From NCBI GenBank assembly GCA_027064425.1, contig JAMOPO010000027.1, positions 1 through 64,000 of the forward strand: a DNA stretch of 64,000 nucleotides, given 5' to 3'. Below are positions 39,694 to 51,855 of this stretch, piece after piece. Both the position numbers and the translations under genes were made by a program. The notes beneath the pieces were generated by a model that worked only from the letters and a program-made list of their open reading frames with translations, was not told where the DNA came from and ran no database searches. This DNA is from Methanobacteriota archaeon. GTDB lineage: Archaea > JAADCQ01 > Methanopyri > Methanopyrales > Methanopyraceae. Every line of letters starts with the position of its first letter. Position 1 is the first letter of the stretch.

Positions 39694-39709
39694 GGGGTCC
39701 GCGAGGTTG

Positions 39710-40801
39710 ATGGAACTGAAGGTCCTGGCGGCGACCGCGCTGTGGGTGGTGGTCGAGAGGGACTACCCGTTCGCCACTTATTACCAGAACGTGGACCTGC
39801 AGCGGCTGATTCAGGTTCACCCGCGGACGGTCTGCGTCGACCCCTACTCCGGGCCCGGAGGAGACCCGTGGACTCTGGAGGAGCTGGGCCGGTTAAGGAG
39901 GGCGGGGATACGGCCGGTTGCGTACCTGACCCTCGGGGTCGTGCCGAGATTCCATCCGGACCTGTTCCAGCGGGCCCGGGAACTGGGACTGCTGGGCCCC
40001 GAAGACCCGAGGTGGAAGGGGGACTACGCGGTCGAGTTCTGGGACCCTCGGTGGCAGGAGGTCCTGGCCGAGAAGCTCGCGAGCCTGCGTGAGCTAGGCT
40101 TCGAGGGCGTTCTCTTCGACGTCATCGACGTGTGGACGAGCAGGTGGTACGTCCGGTGGTTCGAGGACGTGACGGGGAGATCGCCGGACGAGCTCCGGGA
40201 GCTCGTGTACCGAACCCTGGCCAGGCTCGCCGACGTGGCCCACTCCCTGGGGATGGAGGTCTACGTGTGCGCCGGGGCGGCCATCTACGACAGGGAGTTC
40301 GGCGCGTTCGTGGAGAGGCACGGTATCAAAGTGGTGACCGAGAACGTGATCGCCACGGACAATGGCACGCTGCAGCCCGCCGAGGCGTTCATGGACGCGC
40401 TCGAGGTGCTGATGACTTTGAGCCGGATCACGGACGTTTACGACGTGGAGTACGGGCTGGACCTGGAGGACGAGGAGGTGAAGCGTCGGCTGACACTCCT
40501 CCTCGGCTCGACCAGGGTTCGGGAGGTGTACGTGACCTCCCCGGCGCACGATCGGCTGGGCGTGGCCGTGGTGCCGGCGGGTCGGTCCGGGCGGGTCGGG
40601 ACCGCCGAGGCGAGGACCGGGAGGGGCGAGAGCTCGACCGCGGGTTCCCAGCGCCCGCACCGCGGGGTACCGTTGATCCCGGTGGTTCCCGTGGGGAGGA
40701 GGGGGAAGCTCCGCCCTGCCCAGTCCGTTCATCCCCGGGCGGGTCGGCGTTACAACCCCTCTTCACGGCCGGCGTGCGGGGAGGTGCCGGCGCGGGGATA
40801 A
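39710..40801 (+). CDS. TM1410/GH114-like TIM-barrel protein (COG2342 type)
   Basis: A 363-residue protein. Residues 1-285 follow the TM1410 pattern: VCVDPYSGPGGDPWTLEELGRLRRAG, IRPVAYLTLGVVPRF, KGDYAVEFWDPRWQEVL, ELGFEGVLFDVIDVW. The strand-end acidic residues (FDVIDVW) are expected catalytic residues of the GH114/GH166-like barrel, the fold also used by the hydrolase half of PelA. No signal peptide. The last about 80 residues are Arg/Gly/Pro rich and end PLIPVVPVGRRGK..., probably disordered. ATG 39710, or TTG one codon earlier. Polysaccharide substrate is inferred; see the PelF/PelG pair at 57-60 kb. Confidence 0.66.
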   Translation: MELKVLAATALWVVVERDYPFATYYQNVDLQRLIQVHPRTVCVDPYSGPGGDPWTLEELGRLRRAGIRPVAYLTLGVVPRFHPDLFQRARELGLLGPEDPRWKGDYAVEFWDPRWQEVLAEKLASLRELGFEGVLFDVIDVWTSRWYVRWFEDVTGRSPDELRELVYRTLARLADVAHSLGMEVYVCAGAAIYDREFGAFVERHGIKVVTENVIATDNGTLQPAEAFMDALEVLMTLSRITDVYDVEYGLDLEDEEVKRRLTLLLGSTRVREVYVTSPAHDRLGVAVVPAGRSGRVGTAEARTGRGESSTAGSQRPHRGVPLIPVVPVGRRGKLRPAQSVHPRAGRRYNPSSRPACGEVPARG

Positions 40802-40825: not shown

Positions 40826-41743
40826 TTGAGGTGCCGTCGGTGCGGTGAGCGGCGGGGTGAGTACGAGCGTCCCTACGCGGGCGACGTAGTGTGCGGCCGG
40901 TGCCTGGTCGAGCTGGTCAGAGACCGGGTGTTCCGGGAGGTCCGCCGCTGGAGGTGGTTTGAGCCGGGGCAGCGGGTAGTCGTGGCGCTCTCGGGTGGAA
41001 AGGACAGCGCGGTCGCGCTCCGGCTCATCCTCGAGTATTTGGAGCCGCTGCCTGAGGTCGAGGTGATCGCGCTCACGGTCGACGAGGGGATCTCGGGGTT
41101 CCGGGACAGGTGCCTGCGTCAGGCTGAGAGGCTGGTGGAGGAGCTCGAGGTGGAGTGGGAGGTGGTGTCGTTCGAGGAGGAGTACGGGTTTAGGCTCGAG
41201 GACGTCGTGGAGGACACCGAGTACCCGGCGTGCACCGTCTGCGGGGTGCTGAGGCGGCGGCTGATAAACGCCAAGGCCCGGGAGCTGAACGCCGACGTCG
41301 TGGTGACGGGGCATAACCTAGACGACGAGGCGCAGGCCGTGCTGATGAACTTCGTGAAGGCGGACCTGGCTCAGCTCTCCAAGCTGCATCCGGAGGTTAA
41401 GCCCGAGTCCGAGTCGGTGGTGCCGAGGGTTAAGCCGCTGCGGCGGGTCCCGGAGCGGGAGGTCCGGTGGGTTGCTGACGAGCTGAACCTGCCGTATCAC
41501 CCGGACCCCTGCCCGTTCGCCGAGTCCTCCGTCCGGTCGTTCTTCCGGCGACTGCTGGACGAGCTGGAGGAGGAGCTCCCGAACGCGAAGTTCGGGATCC
41601 TGCAGGCCCTCGACCGGGCCGGTCCGCTCCTGGCCGAAGAGTTCCTCCAGGGCGAGGTTAGAGCGTGCGAGCGCTGCGGGGAGCCGGCCTCCGGGGAGCT
41701 CTGCAAGGCCTGCGAGATCTTGGAGGCGCTCGATCAGCGCTGA
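40826..41743 (+). CDS. TtuA/Ncs6-type tRNA 2-thiolation enzyme
   Basis: A PP-loop thiolase that puts sulfur on U34 or U54 of tRNA. In 305 residues: N-terminal zinc site CRRCGERRGEY..VCGRC, PP-loop VVALSGGKDSAVAL, catalytic/cluster cysteines YPACTVCGVLRRRLIN and DPCPFAESSVRSFFRRLL, and C-terminal zinc site CERCGEPASGELCKAC. This cysteine set is the TtuA/Ncs6 signature. For a hyperthermophile, 2-thiolation of position 54 is the likely job. TTG 40826 after GGGGCGGCGAGGGGC; the 3' end overlaps convergent larC by ten bases. Confidence 0.88.
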   Translation: MRCRRCGERRGEYERPYAGDVVCGRCLVELVRDRVFREVRRWRWFEPGQRVVVALSGGKDSAVALRLILEYLEPLPEVEVIALTVDEGISGFRDRCLRQAERLVEELEVEWEVVSFEEEYGFRLEDVVEDTEYPACTVCGVLRRRLINAKARELNADVVVTGHNLDDEAQAVLMNFVKADLAQLSKLHPEVKPESESVVPRVKPLRRVPEREVRWVADELNLPYHPDPCPFAESSVRSFFRRLLDELEEELPNAKFGILQALDRAGPLLAEEFLQGEVRACERCGEPASGELCKACEILEALDQR

Positions 41744-42965: not shown

Positions 42966-43292
42966 TTGGGTCTGGTTGAGGTGCGGGTCTTCGTGGACCC
43001 CGAGAACGTCGGCAAGCTGATGAACGCGATGGCGGACGCCGGCGTGACCGGGTTCTACGCGGTGGAGTATCGGGGCGTGGCCCCGGATCGTTGGGAAGGG
43101 TTCGAGATCGACGAGGATCCGGAGCAGGCGATCAAGGCCATGAACGACCTCTCGGAGCGCGCGGTCATGGTGGTGACGGTGATCCCGGAGGACCGGCTGG
43201 ACGACCTGAAAAAGGCCGTGAGGGAGCGTCTGTCGGGCGACAGGTACACGATCATGGTGGCTGAGGTGAGGGAAGTCGAGGTGAGGGGCTAG
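42966..43292 (+). CDS. MJ1244-family P-II-like protein
   Basis: A 108-residue protein with the ferredoxin-like beta-alpha-beta plan of the P-II superfamily: VEVRVFVDPENVGKLMNAMADA, TGFYAVEYRGVAPDRWEGFE, DDLKKAVRERLSGDRYTIMVAE. Family members such as MJ1244 lack the long T-loop of GlnB. Role probably ligand sensing; unknown ligand. TTG 42966 after CCGGGGATAAGG. Its end overlaps the convergent V4R gene by four bases. Confidence 0.75.
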   Translation: MGLVEVRVFVDPENVGKLMNAMADAGVTGFYAVEYRGVAPDRWEGFEIDEDPEQAIKAMNDLSERAVMVVTVIPEDRLDDLKKAVRERLSGDRYTIMVAEVREVEVRG

Positions 43293-44350
43293 CGGAACGC
43301 CCGCCGCACGGCGTCCGCCACCTTCTTCACCTTCCACGCGATTCCCTCGATGCGGACCTCGCACGAGCCAACGACGGCGTCCTTGGTGGCCGAGCATTCC
43401 ACCTCCACGACCCGCTTGAACGGGATTCCGTAGTGCTCCAGCAGCATCGACAGGGCGCCGCGCACCGCGTGGCAGACGGGCTCGTCGGACTCCATCCCGG
43501 CGCACTCCAGGCACTTCTCCACGCGGAACCGGTCGCCCTCGAGCTCGTAGCTGGACCCGCTGATCTCCTCCACCCTGGCCACCAGCTCCTCCGGATCCTC
43601 CGGATCGAACGCATCGATGAACGCCTCGGCGTACAGCCGGCCCGCCCGAAAGAACATGGGCCGGGCCGCGTCGCCGAAGACCTCCCGCAGCAGGCTCTCC
43701 GAGGCGATCTTAAAGGCCGCCACCTCCTCCGGGTCGCGGCTCGCGCTGAGCATCTCCTCGAACTCCGACTCGGTGAAGTCGCGAAGCTCCGGGATGTGGG
43801 GCTCCCCGTTGCCGCCCTTGCTCTCGTCCCCGATCACGAATACGCATCGACCATCACCCGCTCCCTCGCACTCCGTCTGGACGACCTTGACCGGTTCTCC
43901 CGTCACCTCCTTCACGACGCCCGCGATGAACCCTCGGATGAAGTTGCAGGCGGGGCCGTTGAGGCGCGGGTAGCCGGCGCACTCGGGGCAGTTTCGGACG
44001 ATCACAACTCCGTCCTTCTCATCCACCTCGCAGTCGGCACCTACCATGTCAAGGAACTCAGTTAGCGGCTCCTCGAGATCGTCACCCTTGAACCACCTGG
44101 CCAACATCGAGCCCGCATTGACCAGCGCCCCGCAGCACTTGTCGCCGACCAGCGTGTACAGCGCCAGCACGACCATCTTGTTGGTCGCCTGAAGCTCCCC
44201 GGCCGTGAACTCGGACCCTACCTCCTCCGCCACCTGTCGGAGCTTGTCGGGGGACATCTCAAGTCCCCCGCTGAGCGCCACATTCACGGTGCCGGGCTTC
44301 TCATTACCGGCGGACGTCGGCGCGGGCACCGTAGCGAACCCAGTCGTCAT
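43289..44350 (-). CDS. Protein with two V4R (vinyl-4-reductase-type) sensor domains
   Basis: A 353-residue protein in which two copies of a V4R domain follow one another. Copy one ends RNCPECAGYPRLNGPACNFIRGFIAGV then EPVKVVQTECEGAGDGRCVFVI; copy two ends EKCLECAGMESDEPVCHAVRGALSML then KRVVEVECSATKDAVVGSCEVRI. Each keeps the CxxC and the C-terminal cysteine pattern that may bind metal or a small molecule. V4R proteins in methanogens are often linked to methyltransferase regulation; that link is inferred. ATG 44350 overlaps the stop of the MCM-like gene (ATGA), so both are co-translated. Confidence 0.8.
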   Translation of the reverse strand: MTTGFATVPAPTSAGNEKPGTVNVALSGGLEMSPDKLRQVAEEVGSEFTAGELQATNKMVVLALYTLVGDKCCGALVNAGSMLARWFKGDDLEEPLTEFLDMVGADCEVDEKDGVVIVRNCPECAGYPRLNGPACNFIRGFIAGVVKEVTGEPVKVVQTECEGAGDGRCVFVIGDESKGGNGEPHIPELRDFTESEFEEMLSASRDPEEVAAFKIASESLLREVFGDAARPMFFRAGRLYAEAFIDAFDPEDPEELVARVEEISGSSYELEGDRFRVEKCLECAGMESDEPVCHAVRGALSMLLEHYGIPFKRVVEVECSATKDAVVGSCEVRIEGIAWKVKKVADAVRRAFR

Positions 44351-45579
44351 TGGGATACGAAGATGCTTTCGATAGGGGCGTTGATGCGCTCGATCCACCT
44401 GGACATCAGCTCGGACACCCTGCGTACGTCCTCCTCCTCGACCCTGTCAGACAGCCTCAGACGGGCGTGGGCCCGGGCCAGCAGCAGCATGGTCCGCTCT
44501 ATCCTCCTCTTGGACGGGCCCCAGCTGGAGGCCCTGGACAGCTCCGAGGCCCGAGACGACACCATCCTCACGACGCTCGACGAACACCTCGGCCCCTCGA
44601 CCCGAGAGGCACACTTCAGCAGCGCCCTGACGTCCTCCTCCCTGATTCGTCTCCCGCTGACCCTCTCCGGGTAAGGATCCGGCCACAGGATCAGGTCCAC
44701 GCTCCTCAGCGCGGCTCCGGGGATCTTCAGGCAGGTGAGGGCGGGGTGCTCGTCTGGTGAGGACTCCAGCGCGCAGATGACGGAGCATCGGACCCCGAAC
44801 CGGACGCCGGAGACCGGGATCACGCCACGCCGGGTTAGGGAGAGCAGCTCCAGGAGTTTGGGATCGTGCGGATCGACGCCGTCGGCGATCAGCAGGCCGT
44901 CGTTGGCCAGCATCGGAACACCGGCCTCGAACCTCCACCCGGTCTCGGTAACCGTCAAGTCCCCTCGGAGGTTCCGGGAGCTGGCGGACCTCAGGTTTAC
45001 CTTGTGGGCCTGGGGCGAGAGCCGCCGGATCCGCTCCGTGACCGCACGCGCGACCCGCGGAGGGGCCAGGAAGAGCGCGCTCGCAGCCGCGCCGCCCACC
45101 GGGGTGACCATCAGCAGTGCCAAGAGCTCATAGCATGGCTCCGGCCTCCTCCGAGGCGAGAGAACGCTCGCGCACGCCTCGAGCGGGTCGTCATCCGAGA
45201 GCTCCTGGGCCGCAACCATCTCCTCAGGTGAGGGGGAGGGGTCCGACTCGACGGGTCTGACGTCGATGGCCACAACCTCGCCGCGGTCGTTGCGCCCGCC
45301 CAGCACCAGAACCTCACGACCGGGCCGCAGGAGGTCCGGGGCCACCCTGACCGACGGCCTCACGGGGACCGTCTCGCCCTCCTCCGTTAGCAGCTTGAAC
45401 CCGCGGACGTGTTCCACCCCCTCCACGGACTTGACGCGGCCGCGCACGACGACCGGCGCCAAATTCCTCAGCTCGAGTGAGCTGGGGGCTGAATCCTCGG
45501 GAACGCTGTCCTGAGGGACGTCCAGCTCGGACAGCCGCCGCAGCGCGTCAGCCGTCAGGTCCTCGTCCGCGTCCTCCAT
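44347..45579 (-). CDS. MCM-like protein with lost ATPase motifs
   Basis: A 410-residue relative of replicative helicase MCM. Residues about 45-110 look like an OB fold (VVRGRVKSVEGVEHVRGFKL). Residues 150-395 follow the MCM AAA core: KVNLRSASSRNLRGDLTV and GWRFEAGVPMLANDGLL correspond to the MCM block before Walker B, and ARAHARLRLSDRVEEEDVRR to its C-terminal lid. Walker A is gone (ALFLAPPRVARAV, 168-180) and the Walker B DEFDK is replaced by LLIADGVD (229-236). It is about 250 residues shorter than normal MCM and has no zinc motif. ATPase activity is therefore unlikely; an adaptor or inhibitor role in replication is inferred. ATG 45579 after GGAGAG. Confidence 0.75.
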   Translation of the reverse strand: MEDADEDLTADALRRLSELDVPQDSVPEDSAPSSLELRNLAPVVVRGRVKSVEGVEHVRGFKLLTEEGETVPVRPSVRVAPDLLRPGREVLVLGGRNDRGEVVAIDVRPVESDPSPSPEEMVAAQELSDDDPLEACASVLSPRRRPEPCYELLALLMVTPVGGAAASALFLAPPRVARAVTERIRRLSPQAHKVNLRSASSRNLRGDLTVTETGWRFEAGVPMLANDGLLIADGVDPHDPKLLELLSLTRRGVIPVSGVRFGVRCSVICALESSPDEHPALTCLKIPGAALRSVDLILWPDPYPERVSGRRIREEDVRALLKCASRVEGPRCSSSVVRMVSSRASELSRASSWGPSKRRIERTMLLLARAHARLRLSDRVEEEDVRRVSELMSRWIERINAPIESIFVSQ

Positions 45580-45709: not shown

Positions 45710-46942
45710 TCACGATCCTCCGCACTCCGACGCCGGAACGAGGCCGCGACGAGACCGCAGCGCCGCGGGCAGTGGGAGCGGGACCGTGGGTAGCGGGGGC
45801 AGCCGCCTCTTCCGTTCAGCCCCACCCCCTCCCTTGACGGCAACGCCGCTCGGTGCCACGATCACGGTGACCGGGTTGCTGAACGCTGGAGCCATGAGCG
45901 GTCCCCCCTGGAACATGGCCACGTAGACGAACCGACCGGACTTCTTCGGAGTGACCCTCAGGGGCGGGGTCTTACCGTCCGGACCGGTGACCCAGCCCGC
46001 AAGGGCCGAGGCGCTCACTATCGCCCCGTTTTCCAGCAGGAAGATCCTGGCGTTCGGGACCGGGCGGCCCCTGTAATCCGTGAGCACGGCCCGGAGCTCG
46101 AACGCCCTACCACCGTCGACGGCCTTGGCGAGGAGCCTCAGCCTGACCCGCTCCCGGAACGTGCACACGGTTCTCCAGGTGGCGGGCTCGTAGAGGGGAC
46201 CGCCCGCGTACCGGACCTCGATGGCGAGGATCCCGGGCTTCTTGGGCCTGACCCACAGCTGGAACCCGCCGGCTCGGTCCGGCCGCGCGGTGATCGTCTC
46301 GCTCAGCCCGCACCCCTGAACGACCACCGTGATCGGCGCGGGGATCGGCACCCCGAACACCCCGTCCCGCAGCTCTCCCCGGATCATCACGCGCTGTCCG
46401 ATCAGGCCAACCCGTGGGAGGACCGCGACCCGCAGGCTCACCGGGAGCCTCGTTAGGAACTTCGTCAGCGGGTGGATGACGCAGTCCGGGACCCTGGCCA
46501 CCGGTCTCGAGGTTGCTCCACGGAGCTCCAACAGCAGCAGCTCGGGCCTGGTCAGGTTGTTCGGGCCGGTAATTAGCAGTCCGTAGAGGCGCAGGTACCG
46601 GCCGGTAAGACCCACGTAAGCTCGGGCCTTAATCGCGGACGACCGGGTTTTAAGCGCGCGGGCGGTGACCTCGATCCACCCTCTGGTCTCGTCGCCCACG
46701 CGGACGCGGGTGATCCATCTGACCCCGCCGTTCTCCGCGAGGACCAACCTACACCACGGCTTACCGTTCACCAGCAGGTCCACGGCCCAGCCCACTCTCG
46801 GGTCCAGCCGCAGCAGCGGGTAGTACTTCAGACCGATCGCGTAGACCGCTGCGTGGCCGGTCGCTGGAGCCGTGAACGCCGCTAACAGCACCACCGCGAG
46901 CGTCAGAGCGGTCCGAAGTATTACCCCCGAGGCGGCCGGCAC
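45710..46942 (-). CDS. Exported protein with Ig-like beta domains, unknown function
   Basis: A 410-residue protein. The N-terminus ILRTALTLAVVLLAAFTAPA is a clear signal peptide ending in ATGHA. The body is beta-rich with repeated Ig/bacterial-Ig-type patterns (MIRGELRDGVFGVPIPAPITV, FELRAVLTDYRGRPVPNARIFLL, VTPKKSGRFVYVAMFQGG). The C-terminus is Pro/Arg/Gly rich (RRLPPLPTVPLPLPAAL) with no membrane anchor. GTG 46942 is the only start before the signal, though its ribosome site is weak. Divergent from the large S-layer-like gene; both use the 94-base intergenic region. A surface or secreted role is likely. Confidence 0.66.
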   Translation of the reverse strand: MPAASGVILRTALTLAVVLLAAFTAPATGHAAVYAIGLKYYPLLRLDPRVGWAVDLLVNGKPWCRLVLAENGGVRWITRVRVGDETRGWIEVTARALKTRSSAIKARAYVGLTGRYLRLYGLLITGPNNLTRPELLLLELRGATSRPVARVPDCVIHPLTKFLTRLPVSLRVAVLPRVGLIGQRVMIRGELRDGVFGVPIPAPITVVVQGCGLSETITARPDRAGGFQLWVRPKKPGILAIEVRYAGGPLYEPATWRTVCTFRERVRLRLLAKAVDGGRAFELRAVLTDYRGRPVPNARIFLLENGAIVSASALAGWVTGPDGKTPPLRVTPKKSGRFVYVAMFQGGPLMAPAFSNPVTVIVAPSGVAVKGGGGAERKRRLPPLPTVPLPLPAALRSRRGLVPASECGGS

Positions 46943-47036: not shown

Positions 47037-49715
47037 GTGGCCCGCGTGGGGCCGGTAATCCTCGCGGCGTTGGCCGCTTTGTTGGCGCTCACGGGCGCCT
47101 CGGCGGCGGCGCCGCTGTCGGTTAGCCAGTCGGACGTGGTCAGGGGAGTCGTCGAGTGGGAGCTCAGCAAGGGTGTCTTCACGCCGGTGTACAGGCAGCT
47201 GGAGATCACCTCAGAGGCCGCCGTATCCAACCCGTCGACCAACCAGAAGACCTACGATGTGGTCCCTGTGGCGCGGTCGCCGTCGCTGACGGGTTTCCAG
47301 ATGCTACAGGACCCGAACGCGCAGGTGCAGGTAGCGCAGCTCAGCGACAAGGTGGTCGGTGAAACTTACGTTAAGCTGTCGCCCGGAAGCCAGGCGGCGG
47401 TCGGCTACCGGCTGGTTTGCGTCAGCCCGACCGAGGGTGAGTGGGGTCGGGTCGCTCCGGTAGTGAAGTACGACATCATGGTCAACGGAGCCCCGTGGTT
47501 CCAAACGCAGGTGTCGGGCGCCGACACCATCGCGGAGGTGATCGAGATCGCCAACCACGGCGTCCAGGTGTGGGTCGACGACGAGCAGGGAGGCACGCAG
47601 CAGGCCGGTTCGCTCTACAACCTGATGGTGCTGGTCCCGGTTGATCAGCTCTACCAGCTCAGGCAGGCCCTCGGAGTCGACTACGAGGTCACACTGTCCG
47701 TGGCCGAGAACCCGTTGAACGGGACGATCCCGAGCAATCTGCAGCCGACGGCTAGGGTCACCGTGGACGCGAACGGGAACCCGACCATCACCTTCGACCT
47801 GGACGGTGACGGCGCCTCGGACTCGTGCCTGATGATCTACACCCTGAATGGCGTTCAGTACCTGACGATCGGTGTCGACACGAACGGTGACGGTGCGGTG
47901 GACGAGCCCGCGAAGTACGCGGTGGACCCGGACTCGAAGCTCGGCGTTCGGGTGATGTACCAGCTGTCCTCGGCGCCCTCGCAGGCCGCGACGGCGCTGC
48001 TGCCGGACGTGTACCTCGAGTACGAGTACGCGTACAAGGACTCCTCAGGCAACTACGTAACGAGCGGGGTCACCGTCACCCCACCGTGGTACGTGGCCGT
48101 GCGGCCCGACGAGCTGATCGAGGTCTCGTGGGTCGGTGAGCCGCTGCAGGTGCCGTCGAACGGTGATTGGGGCAGCGTGGACTGGCAGGTCGTGCCGAGG
48201 GTGCGGAACCTGGCGGAGTTCGGGGTCTACCTGCAGCAGGTCAACGTTTACGGACTGTCGAGCGCGGACCTAGTCAACGGGTGGACGCTGGTGCAGTCGT
48301 TCTCGTTCAACCCGCCGAGCGACGGGCTGATCCCGGCCGGTGGTGAGTGGGTCGGGGAGGCCGTAACGATCAGCCCGGCGTCGAGCCCGATCTACGGCAG
48401 CGCGGTGTACTGGAAGATCGAGGTGCAGCTGGGCAACCCGCTGCTGGGTCAGGAGGTGGAGCTGGACAAGACCCGGGCGGCCACCGGTGAGGTCGTGGTG
48501 AAGGGTGTGGCACTACCGGTCGTGCCGCAGGGCGTCCCGGCGGTCTTCGGGCTCTCGGCGTACACCGAGCCGACGAGCGTGCAGCCGGGCACGCGGACGG
48601 TGACGTTCCACTTCAAGTTGGGCGTGGACGGGTCCGCACTGACGTCCGACTCGGTGACCGTCTCGATCTCGATCCCAACCCAGACGGCCCTGGGCGGTTC
48701 GGCCAGCTACGTCGCCGGGAGCGTGAGGGTGTACGTGTACAAGGCCGTGCAGCACTCGAACGGCACGGTGAGTCTGGTGAGGGAGGACGTCACGGGCCAG
48801 GCCAGCATCACGGAGCCGTCGAGCACGAGCAACACGCTGACGATCACGCTCGGTCCGAGCCAGGACCTGGCGTCGGTGCGGTACATCGAGGTCGTGTTCC
48901 AGGTGAACGCCGACTTCCAGTCGGGTGACGCGTACACGATCTCGGACGCCACGGTGCAGATCGGTAGCGTGAGCTACGCGTTCCCGGAGGTTCGGGTAAC
49001 GTCAACCTACGTGCCCGACGTCCCGGTGATCTCGGGTGAGAAGACGAGCTCGGGCTTCGTGGTTGAGGCGAACGGGTTCGTGAGCCCGAAGACCGGTGAC
49101 TTCGGCATGCCGATGGTGGTCGTGGATTACGTGCCGATGGCCGACGTGAAGGACACTGATGGTGACGGGCAGCCGGACATCAACGCGTTCCTGCAGAACC
49201 TGAGCGTCACCGGCCGGTGGGGTCAGACGGACATCGCGTCAGCGGAGTACGTCGGGCAGGCGTCGACGGGAGAGTACATCCTGGCGCTGAAGGACGCGAG
49301 CGGGAACGTGCTGGCGTACCTCGCGGTGAAGGTGCTGGGCACGGTAACCATCGGCAACGTTGACTACTACGCCATCCTGCTGTACAGCGTGAGCTACGAC
49401 CCGAGCTCCGGCACGATCACCGGCGTCCGGAACATGCTGCCGAACACGCAGATTCAGGTGACCTACCCGAGCACGTACTACGACCCGAACGGCGTGCCGG
49501 TGCGGTACTGGGACGAGATCCGGCTGCTGATCGCCGTGGACCCATCGTCCATCCCGATGACCCACTCGGCCGGTGGACCAACGCTGAAGGTCAGGCTGCC
49601 AACGACGGAGGGCGCGCACCAGTACAGCATCACCAAGAAGGGCAAGCGGGCGGTGCCGGTGGCCATCGCGCTGCTGGGCGCGCTGATCCCGCTGATCGCC
49701 CGCCGGCGCTTCTAA
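47037..49715 (+). CDS. Large surface protein, S-layer candidate
   Basis: An 892-residue protein. Residues 1-24 are a signal peptide (VILAALAALLALTGASAAA). The body is beta-rich, polar, with Ser/Thr/Asn/Gln content far above the neighbours and several N-x-S/T sites. Three calcium-type DxDxDG loops are seen: DLDGDGASD (about 255), DTNGDGAVD (about 281) and DTDGDGQPD (about 706). The C-terminus is one hydrophobic helix followed by RRR (VPVAIALLGALIPLIARRRF), a membrane anchor. Codon use is more uniform than in the neighbours, and the promoter, leader and downstream hairpin all suggest high expression. An S-layer or adhesin role is inferred; no family motif was recognised. Confidence 0.75.
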   Translation: MARVGPVILAALAALLALTGASAAAPLSVSQSDVVRGVVEWELSKGVFTPVYRQLEITSEAAVSNPSTNQKTYDVVPVARSPSLTGFQMLQDPNAQVQVAQLSDKVVGETYVKLSPGSQAAVGYRLVCVSPTEGEWGRVAPVVKYDIMVNGAPWFQTQVSGADTIAEVIEIANHGVQVWVDDEQGGTQQAGSLYNLMVLVPVDQLYQLRQALGVDYEVTLSVAENPLNGTIPSNLQPTARVTVDANGNPTITFDLDGDGASDSCLMIYTLNGVQYLTIGVDTNGDGAVDEPAKYAVDPDSKLGVRVMYQLSSAPSQAATALLPDVYLEYEYAYKDSSGNYVTSGVTVTPPWYVAVRPDELIEVSWVGEPLQVPSNGDWGSVDWQVVPRVRNLAEFGVYLQQVNVYGLSSADLVNGWTLVQSFSFNPPSDGLIPAGGEWVGEAVTISPASSPIYGSAVYWKIEVQLGNPLLGQEVELDKTRAATGEVVVKGVALPVVPQGVPAVFGLSAYTEPTSVQPGTRTVTFHFKLGVDGSALTSDSVTVSISIPTQTALGGSASYVAGSVRVYVYKAVQHSNGTVSLVREDVTGQASITEPSSTSNTLTITLGPSQDLASVRYIEVVFQVNADFQSGDAYTISDATVQIGSVSYAFPEVRVTSTYVPDVPVISGEKTSSGFVVEANGFVSPKTGDFGMPMVVVDYVPMADVKDTDGDGQPDINAFLQNLSVTGRWGQTDIASAEYVGQASTGEYILALKDASGNVLAYLAVKVLGTVTIGNVDYYAILLYSVSYDPSSGTITGVRNMLPNTQIQVTYPSTYYDPNGVPVRYWDEIRLLIAVDPSSIPMTHSAGGPTLKVRLPTTEGAHQYSITKKGKRAVPVAIALLGALIPLIARRRF

Positions 49716-49773: not shown

Positions 49774-50964
49774 TTGCCGCCCGCAGCCCTCGCCTTCCTC
49801 ACGGCCTTGATCGCGCTCTCCTCTCCGGTCTCGGCGTCAACGCCCCAGAAGGTGGACATCGTCGTTGACTCGGGGAGTGGCCAGCTCCCGGACCCGCGCT
49901 ACCTGAACTCCTACCCCAACACTCCCTCGTACGACTCCCGGATCATCGTCACCACCAAATCCGGGTCCGTCGTCTGGCGGTACTCCATCTACCTCGGCAT
50001 CGTGGACGGGCGGGGGGCGACCGCCCCGGCCCCGATGATCGTGGCCCGGGTGGACGAGGGTGCGGACGGGACCTGGGACGTCGTCCTGTTCGAGGGCAGC
50101 CCGCCGAACCCGACCGTGACGCTCCCTTACACGGCCGAGTACACCGTGCCGGTCGCCCTGGAGGTCCGGGCGGACGACAACGAGGGGGATGGCGACTACG
50201 ACGACGTGGACGTGATCCTCAAGATCACCGGCACCGGGATCACGGTGGAGTGGGTGAGCGTATCCTCGGGGGTCACCCCGTGGCTGGAGGTGAAGCCCCT
50301 CACCGTCAACGCCTCTTGGGACCCCGCGGGCGGGACGCTGAGCGTTGGCACGCCGCCCGCCTACCGGTTCTCACGGTCGACCGTGAGCGTCTCGTTCCGG
50401 GACGATGGAACGGTGGTCGGCGTGGACGCGCAGGGGAACCCCTCGTACTATGACGATCCCAACGTCAGCGGGGTGGCCCCGCCGTACCTCTCGAACTTCA
50501 AGGCGCTCGTGCTGATCCCCGCCCCGGAGAACGCGGCCTCCGTGGAGCTTCAGGGATCCTTCGTCGTAACGCGGACCATCAACGACGGGTCACAGACGTT
50601 GGATGAGGGAACGTTCGACGTGACCCTGCAGCCCGGTAGCTCGGTTCAGGTCACCGGCACCAACCAGGCGGCTCAGCTGACCTTCCAGCTGGAGGCGTTC
50701 TCGTCGGGCTACGCCATCCTGCTGATCACCATGTCCGCCGACTCGGGCGGCTCGGCGGTGTTCAGCTCGGGCGACAGGTACGAGCTGACGTTCTCCAGGG
50801 TAGTCGTCTACGACTCCTCGGGCAACGCCGTGGAGATCCCACCGGACCGGGTGCTAACGCTGGCTGTGATCTTCGGCGGCGCGCCCGGAGACCGGGCGAG
50901 CGTGCTACCGTTCTCGGTCGTCGGCCTCCTCGCCCTCGCACGCCTTCTTCAGCGATCGCCATAG
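49774..50964 (+). CDS. Second exported surface protein with C-terminal anchor
   Basis: A 396-residue protein from TTG 49774 (GGGGGAG upstream). Signal peptide PAALAFLTALIALSSPVSA; beta-rich body with DDNEGDGDYDDVD (a calcium-like acidic loop, about 132-144), SRSTVSVSFRDDGTVVGVDA and DGSQTLDEGTFDVTLQPG; C-terminal hydrophobic LPFSVVGLLALARLLQRSP anchor. The composition is like the upstream 892-residue protein, with which it may form an envelope layer. The last 60 bases overlap the 3' end of the convergent PP-loop gene. No family recognised. Confidence 0.7.
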   Translation: MPPAALAFLTALIALSSPVSASTPQKVDIVVDSGSGQLPDPRYLNSYPNTPSYDSRIIVTTKSGSVVWRYSIYLGIVDGRGATAPAPMIVARVDEGADGTWDVVLFEGSPPNPTVTLPYTAEYTVPVALEVRADDNEGDGDYDDVDVILKITGTGITVEWVSVSSGVTPWLEVKPLTVNASWDPAGGTLSVGTPPAYRFSRSTVSVSFRDDGTVVGVDAQGNPSYYDDPNVSGVAPPYLSNFKALVLIPAPENAASVELQGSFVVTRTINDGSQTLDEGTFDVTLQPGSSVQVTGTNQAAQLTFQLEAFSSGYAILLITMSADSGGSAVFSSGDRYELTFSRVVVYDSSGNAVEIPPDRVLTLAVIFGGAPGDRASVLPFSVVGLLALARLLQRSP

Positions 50965-51855
50965 GCGGTCGAGGAGCTCGACGCGGTCCATGGACAGCTC
51001 CAGCCTCAGCCACTCGAGCCCGTGGGCGACCTTGCCGCGCAAGGTTGCGGCGTAGGGCTTCGAGTACGGGCAGTCCGCGTTGAACGGCTCGAGCCCGGTC
51101 TCCTCCGGGACGCGGGCGGTCCACTCCTCCGGGACCCGGACGATGGGTCGCACGATCGTCGTGGGAGGGAACTCGTAGTTGACGTACCTCGAGACCATCC
51201 CTTCGAGCCGCTCCTTCGGGGGCAGGAGCTTCACTCCCTCCCCCTTCACGGCCGTCGCGAGGGCGGTGATCACCGCGTCGTCCAGCGTGTGAGCCAGAAC
51301 GATCTTCTCCGAGCGCTCCCGGAGCTCGCGCCGGCGGATCAGCGAGCAGATCAGGCAGGGGGACTCGTCGTGCTCCTCGGCCAGCTCTCCCACGTCCTCG
51401 CGCGGTCGGACGTACTCCAGCTCCAGGCCTAGGCGCCGGCAGAGCTCCTCGCAGTGCCGCCGCCCCTCGCTCCCCCAGACCTCCTCGCCGTGAAGCCTGA
51501 CGTCGATCAGGACGGGGCGGAGCCGGAGGCCCAGCCGGCGGGTGAGGGGCTCCAGCACGAGCAGGCAGGTCAGGCTGTCCTTGCCGCCGCTGAACCCGAC
51601 GGCGACTTCCTCCCGAGGCTCGAAAAGCTCATACCTGGTTATAACGCGATGGGCCCGGACCGAGGCGCGCTCGAGGGTCTTGGACCGGACGATCGTTAGC
51701 CCCGCTCGCTCCAGCCTCCGGCGCCGGCGCTCCGTGAGCTTAGCCCGGCGGGGGTTTAGCGGCACTATCACGCCCTCCTCCAGCACCGCGACGTACCGGG
51801 CGTCCACTCCCACGTCCCGGAGCTCCTCGAGCACCTCCTCGCGCCGCAACGCCAC
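50905..51855 (-). CDS. PP-loop ATPase of the TtcA/TtuA superfamily (tRNA thiolation-like)
   Basis: A 316-residue protein. The first about 85 residues are basic and probably RNA-binding (RRAKLTERRRRRLERAGL). Then come the PP-loop VAVGFSGGKDSLTCLLVLEP, ESPCLICSLIRRREL (CxxC), LAHTLDDAVITAL and ADCPYSKPYAATLRGKV. These follow the TtcA/TtuA layout without the zinc ribbons of the gene at 40.8 kb. Target base unknown. GTG 51855; the divergent rhomboid gene starts only nine bases away, so each promoter must lie inside the other gene unless one start is further in. Confidence 0.75.
   Translation of the reverse strand: MALRREEVLEELRDVGVDARYVAVLEEGVIVPLNPRRAKLTERRRRRLERAGLTIVRSKTLERASVRAHRVITRYELFEPREEVAVGFSGGKDSLTCLLVLEPLTRRLGLRLRPVLIDVRLHGEEVWGSEGRRHCEELCRRLGLELEYVRPREDVGELAEEHDESPCLICSLIRRRELRERSEKIVLAHTLDDAVITALATAVKGEGVKLLPPKERLEGMVSRYVNYEFPPTTIVRPIVRVPEEWTARVPEETGLEPFNADCPYSKPYAATLRGKVAHGLEWLRLELSMDRVELLDRLWRSLKKACEGEEADDRER

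Follow-up and report, generated by a model that had tools for sequence, protein, structure and literature searches.

A putatively inactive MCM-like protein of Methanopyrus, probably a divergent relative of MkaMCM2

What could be the role of an MCM-like protein that has lost the residues for ATP turnover, and is it tied to the double-V4R protein encoded next to it? This question is raised by an ORF at 44347-45579 (minus strand) in a 64,000-nt stretch of a Methanopyrus genome, referred to here as the window. An earlier note, made from the DNA letters alone, described its product as a non-catalytic MCM paralogue that is translated together with the V4R protein and possibly links a ligand sensor to replication.

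The MCM-like gene is real. It has 410 intact codons with an ATG start, preceded by the SD-like sequence AAGGAGAGTATG (AAGGAG), a good ribosome-binding site. Its codon-usage score of 0.304 is coding-like (0.25-0.47 in other window genes), while the other two sense frames score -0.06 and -0.35. Another contig of the same genome (G000:C3) codes for a canonical MCM of 657 amino acids, referred to here as MCM1. Upstream of the MCM-like gene are two large putative secreted or surface proteins (45710-46942 and 47037-49715), in which no confident Pfam domain was detected.

Likeness to MCM and loss of motifs

MkaMCM2 (PDB 3F8T), the product of G002:C1:1092367-1093926, is known from an early full-length MCM crystal structure (Bae et al., 2009, as cited in PMC2933578, PMC3972481 and PMC4619765). 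PMC2933578 and PMC3972481 treat it as an inactive MCM homologue from which internal segments are naturally deleted and in which no conserved Walker A motif is present. A description of its biological role was not found in the literature searched. It is the best PDB sequence match of the window protein (phmmer, E=8e-20, residues 47-397), the best active MCM in the same search reaching only E=1e-3. The MCM of the window's own genome matches at E=5e-6 and 8e-4, and BLASTP gives 81 bits with MkaMCM2 (28% identity) and 41 bits with the own-genome MCM. The Pfam MCM_lid model matches at E=6.6e-5, just below its curated cut-off. An AlphaFold2 model has a pLDDT of 69.8, with residues 113-403 mostly at 70-96 and the N-terminal 112 residues unreliable. 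Its first Foldseek match is 3F8T (E=3.6e-20, TM 0.67/0.61; next match 1.4e-16), and all 50 listed matches are MCM or MCM-complex chains, although fold and sequence evidence partly overlap here, since the input alignment of the model includes MkaMCM2 and other MCMs. The MCM homology claimed in the earlier note is borne out by sequence and by predicted fold.

The motifs were compared in an alignment of the window protein, MkaMCM2, five Methanopyrus MCM1 and three other archaeal MCMs. The degenerate Walker A region (ALFLAPPRVARAV, residues 168-180; 45040-45078, minus strand) reads APPRVA-RAV in place of GDPATAKSQ in MCM; the lysine is gone, no GK is left and one residue is deleted, as in MkaMCM2 (YPVVC-SE). 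In the degenerate Walker B region (GLLIADGVD, residues 228-236; 44872-44898, minus strand), the catalytic Glu is replaced by Gly while Asp D233, invariant in the alignment, is kept. The absence of Walker A is therefore confirmed; of Walker B, it is the catalytic residue alone that is absent. The pre-sensor-1 region (TRRGVIPVSGVRFGV, residues ~248-262; 44794-44838, minus strand) has a 4-residue hairpin deletion common to the window protein and MkaMCM2. The sensor-1 Asn, which MkaMCM2 keeps, is lost (LES for ANP). At the arginine finger, SRFD is replaced by LRSVD with Ser opposite Arg, although a one-residue shift would put Arg there; the position is His in MkaMCM2. The sensor-2 Arg, R359, is kept and is invariant in the alignment. 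The best-conserved part is the AAA-lid (residues 341-394; 44398-44559, minus strand), 24/60 (40%) identical to MkaMCM2 and likewise to MCM1. Also missing are the zinc subdomain with its cysteines, the stretch that follows the EPDP motif, and the winged helix at the C-terminus. The lack of a zinc motif and the shortness of the protein, both stated in the earlier note, are confirmed, the length being 410 versus ~660 amino acids. The window protein thus shares with MCM1 the order of the AAA+ core, the lid and the sensor-2 Arg, whereas MCM1 has all the catalytic motifs, the zinc cysteines, the pre-sensor-1 hairpin and the winged helix.

MkaMCM2 likewise lacks the Walker A lysine, the zinc subdomain and the winged helix. 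Five deletions (zinc domain, P-loop, 4-residue pre-sensor-1 loop, post-EPDP segment and winged helix) are limited to MkaMCM2 and the window protein among the aligned proteins, all five Methanopyrus MCM1 being without them. Reduction goes further in the window protein, which has 410 residues versus 520 in MkaMCM2 and has largely lost the helical N-terminal domain; the Pfam models Mcm-like_N (PF22517) and Mcm2-like_OB_arc (PF22471) match MkaMCM2 but not the window protein. It keeps 49 of the 169 AAA+/lid columns invariant among the five MCM1, versus 94 in MkaMCM2.

As the P-loop lysine, the Walker B glutamate, the sensor-1 asparagine and an identifiable arginine finger are missing, MCM-like ATP binding and hydrolysis would not be expected. 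A working subunit of a helicase ring is also unlikely, because the zinc subdomain, the pre-sensor-1 hairpin and the winged helix are missing. What remains would be a probable OB-like stretch (assigned with low confidence), the AAA+ core and the well-kept lid. If the protein has any role, it would most likely be that of a dispensable stoichiometric binding protein contacting DNA or the active MCM via the lid or core, accessory to the normal MCM as is presumed for MkaMCM2.

Distribution in Methanopyrus and possible decay

Among the genomes of five Methanopyrus species, G000 (that of the window) to G004, the MCM2-like gene is found only in G000 and G002, and is therefore dispensable. The three other species without it include G003, the nearest relative of G000 in a tree of MCM1. 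At the corresponding site of G003, both the V4R and the MCM-like gene are missing, and the LarC and PII-like genes are directly followed by a homologue of the window gene 45710-46942. The single-contig genome G001, whose MCM1 is very similar to that of G002 (end branches 0.02 and 0.009), has neither MCM2 nor any DNA match to, or counterpart of, the 7.5-kb neighbourhood of MkaMCM2. A search of the genus with a profile of the window protein and MkaMCM2 gave no further remnant. When 149 archaeal genomes were searched with MkaMCM2, no other similarly reduced copy was noticed among the matches listed, which do not amount to a census.

An accessory protein without catalysis, perhaps slowly decaying, would fit best; a gene under relaxed selection or in slow decay is nearly as likely as one with a binding role. 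The strongest rival, tentative but quite possible, holds that an MCM2 duplicate is decaying under relaxed selection, that its frame is still open by chance or because the event is recent, and that the remnant has no present function; it overlaps the accessory-protein reading in the identity of the protein and differs in its function. The patchy presence of the gene and the few MCM1-invariant residues left in its product would agree with such decay, as would the very long end branch of the protein (4.04 changes per site), its Ser/Arg-rich composition (S 10.0% and R 12.4% versus 4.3% and 8.8% in MCM1) and a frameshifted V4R remnant in G001. However, a long-neutral gene is expected to gain stop codons, so that 410 codons still open despite very deep divergence count against plain decay, as do the conservation of the lid, the normal codon usage and the SD site. 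Decay in sister strains, which the earlier note had named as an argument against its reading, is seen in part, as absence from three of the four other species, the nearest one included, and as the broken V4R gene of G001.

Descent of the window protein

The tree pairs the window protein with MkaMCM2 at a support of 85/90. With 28% identity and so long a branch, this support falls short of the customary cut-off, and the window protein may be drawn to MkaMCM2 by attraction between dead copies. The window protein is probably a divergent relative of MkaMCM2 because of its homology, the shared deletions and the fold, the exact branching being moderately supported. It is unlikely that a separate MCM duplicate outside the MkaMCM2 lineage was inactivated independently and lost the same parts by convergence. 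The modest tree support, the long branches and the failure of the N-terminal Pfam models of MkaMCM2 would allow this, but even the small P-loop and pre-sensor-1 deletions coincide with those of MkaMCM2, which is the best match both by sequence and by fold.

MkaMCM2 shares 45-48% identity with Methanopyrus MCM1, and for other archaeal MCMs among the matches listed the value is mostly lower; the pair therefore looks like an in-genus duplicate of the replicative MCM of Methanopyrus itself that has lost its activity, although constraining MkaMCM2 to group with the MCM1 proteins was neither preferred nor rejected in the tree (p-AU 0.15). The nearest relative of the window protein being an already known dead MCM of the same genus, the gene extends a known oddity rather than encoding a new kind of protein. 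Compared with MkaMCM2, the window protein has been reduced further and evolves fast, and the non-catalytic paralogue that the earlier note had recognized is of a kind already known. A second, more reduced and patchy homologue shows that the MkaMCM2-type gene is dispensable and evolving fast. This speaks against MkaMCM2 being essential for replication. The MCM mechanism should not be over-read from the divergent parts of its structure.

The neighbouring double-V4R gene

The V4R gene (43289-44257, minus strand; Pfam and homologues) is downstream of the MCM-like gene. Its alternative start at 44350 would form an ATGA overlap (44350-44347) with the stop codon of the MCM-like gene, the basis of the claimed joint translation. 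The overlap does exist, but similarity to homologues sets in only near M48 of the long ORF. A start there, at 44257, would lie 90 nt beyond the MCM stop; ATGA is therefore doubtful as a start, and coupling is not established. The neighbour, and not the MCM-like protein, resembles V4R-domain proteins (PF02830), with two V4R domains and a weak match to MsvR, the best-studied methanogen example (PMC3729527), far below the cut-off (62 versus 220 bits).

The order LarC, PII-like, V4R is found at the same site in G002 and G001 without an MCM neighbour, followed by an aldehyde-dehydrogenase-like gene (named by sequence inspection). In G002, MkaMCM2 is 15 kb away from the V4R gene, whereas the window gene directly adjoins it; both share strand and neighbourhood with the V4R gene. 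The MCM/V4R adjacency, found in G000 only of the five species, thus looks recent, and the V4R neighbour was most likely placed there by local rearrangement; conservation of the pair in other Methanopyrus, which had been suggested as a check, is not observed. The V4R gene of G001 (L041:7252-8277; G001:C1 ~1325251-1326276) is frameshifted by a 7-nt deletion and a 1-nt insertion, and is otherwise ~92% identical to the intact G002 copy. In a V4R tree, the window protein groups with the G002 copy, and two G004 copies are beside them.

The MCM-like protein might be a negative regulator or decoy, a dead subunit that poisons or caps active MCM rings or else sequesters a partner such as GINS, the V4R protein serving as sensor. 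This is improbable, slightly more so than independent inactivation, even though the MCM lid and AAA+ core are recognizable, the V4R gene adjoins, an intact V4R gene accompanies the MCM2-like gene in G000 and G002, and in G001 and G003, which lack MCM2, V4R is frameshifted and missing from the site, respectively. The adjacency occurs once in five genomes, G004 has two V4R co-orthologues yet no MCM2, and the protein has neither an arginine finger that can be identified nor the N-terminal collar domains for MCM ring contacts. V4R and MCM2 are concordantly present or lost in four of the five genomes, with V4R broken or missing in two of the three without MCM2; this loose co-occurrence is the sole and weak hint of a link, against which G004 stands. 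A fast-diverging, ATPase-dead regulatory partner of the replicative MCM, tied to the double-V4R sensor and lost together with it, is very improbable, and the sensor-replication link of the earlier note finds little support.

V4R genes seem to be both expanding and decaying across the genus: a second double-V4R gene in G002 (L046:6592-7545) is split by an in-frame TAA into two ORFs of 146 and 171 amino acids. The G002 homologue of the GH114-like window gene 39707-40801 is in two oppositely oriented pieces (L039:360-434 and L040:9257-9999) ~26 kb apart; it looks as though the LarC-PII-V4R-MCM2 stretch had been moved by an inversion, one of whose ends lay within this gene. Near MkaMCM2 in G002 is also a gene for an Hmd-related dehydrogenase (PF03201; L040:6290-7246); the window's genome carries its counterpart on a different contig (G000:C15:233627-234632).

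The window protein has no match at E<=10 to PF00493, the Pfam model of the MCM P-loop domain, and a search with this model across the genome did not pick up the gene; chance similarity or membership of another AAA+ family, which this might suggest, is refuted by the E=8e-20 match to 3F8T together with fold matches that are all MCM. The defence-system search with the window protein and the scan of GTDB genome contigs gave no match and no relative, respectively. In PHROGs, the lid weakly matches a DNA helicase family, and the profile of the window protein and MkaMCM2 finds one distant match (L078, 22% identity) among viral contigs. Elsewhere in the window, 40826-41743 and 50905-51855 are two related PP-loop ATPase-type genes no more than 10 kb apart.
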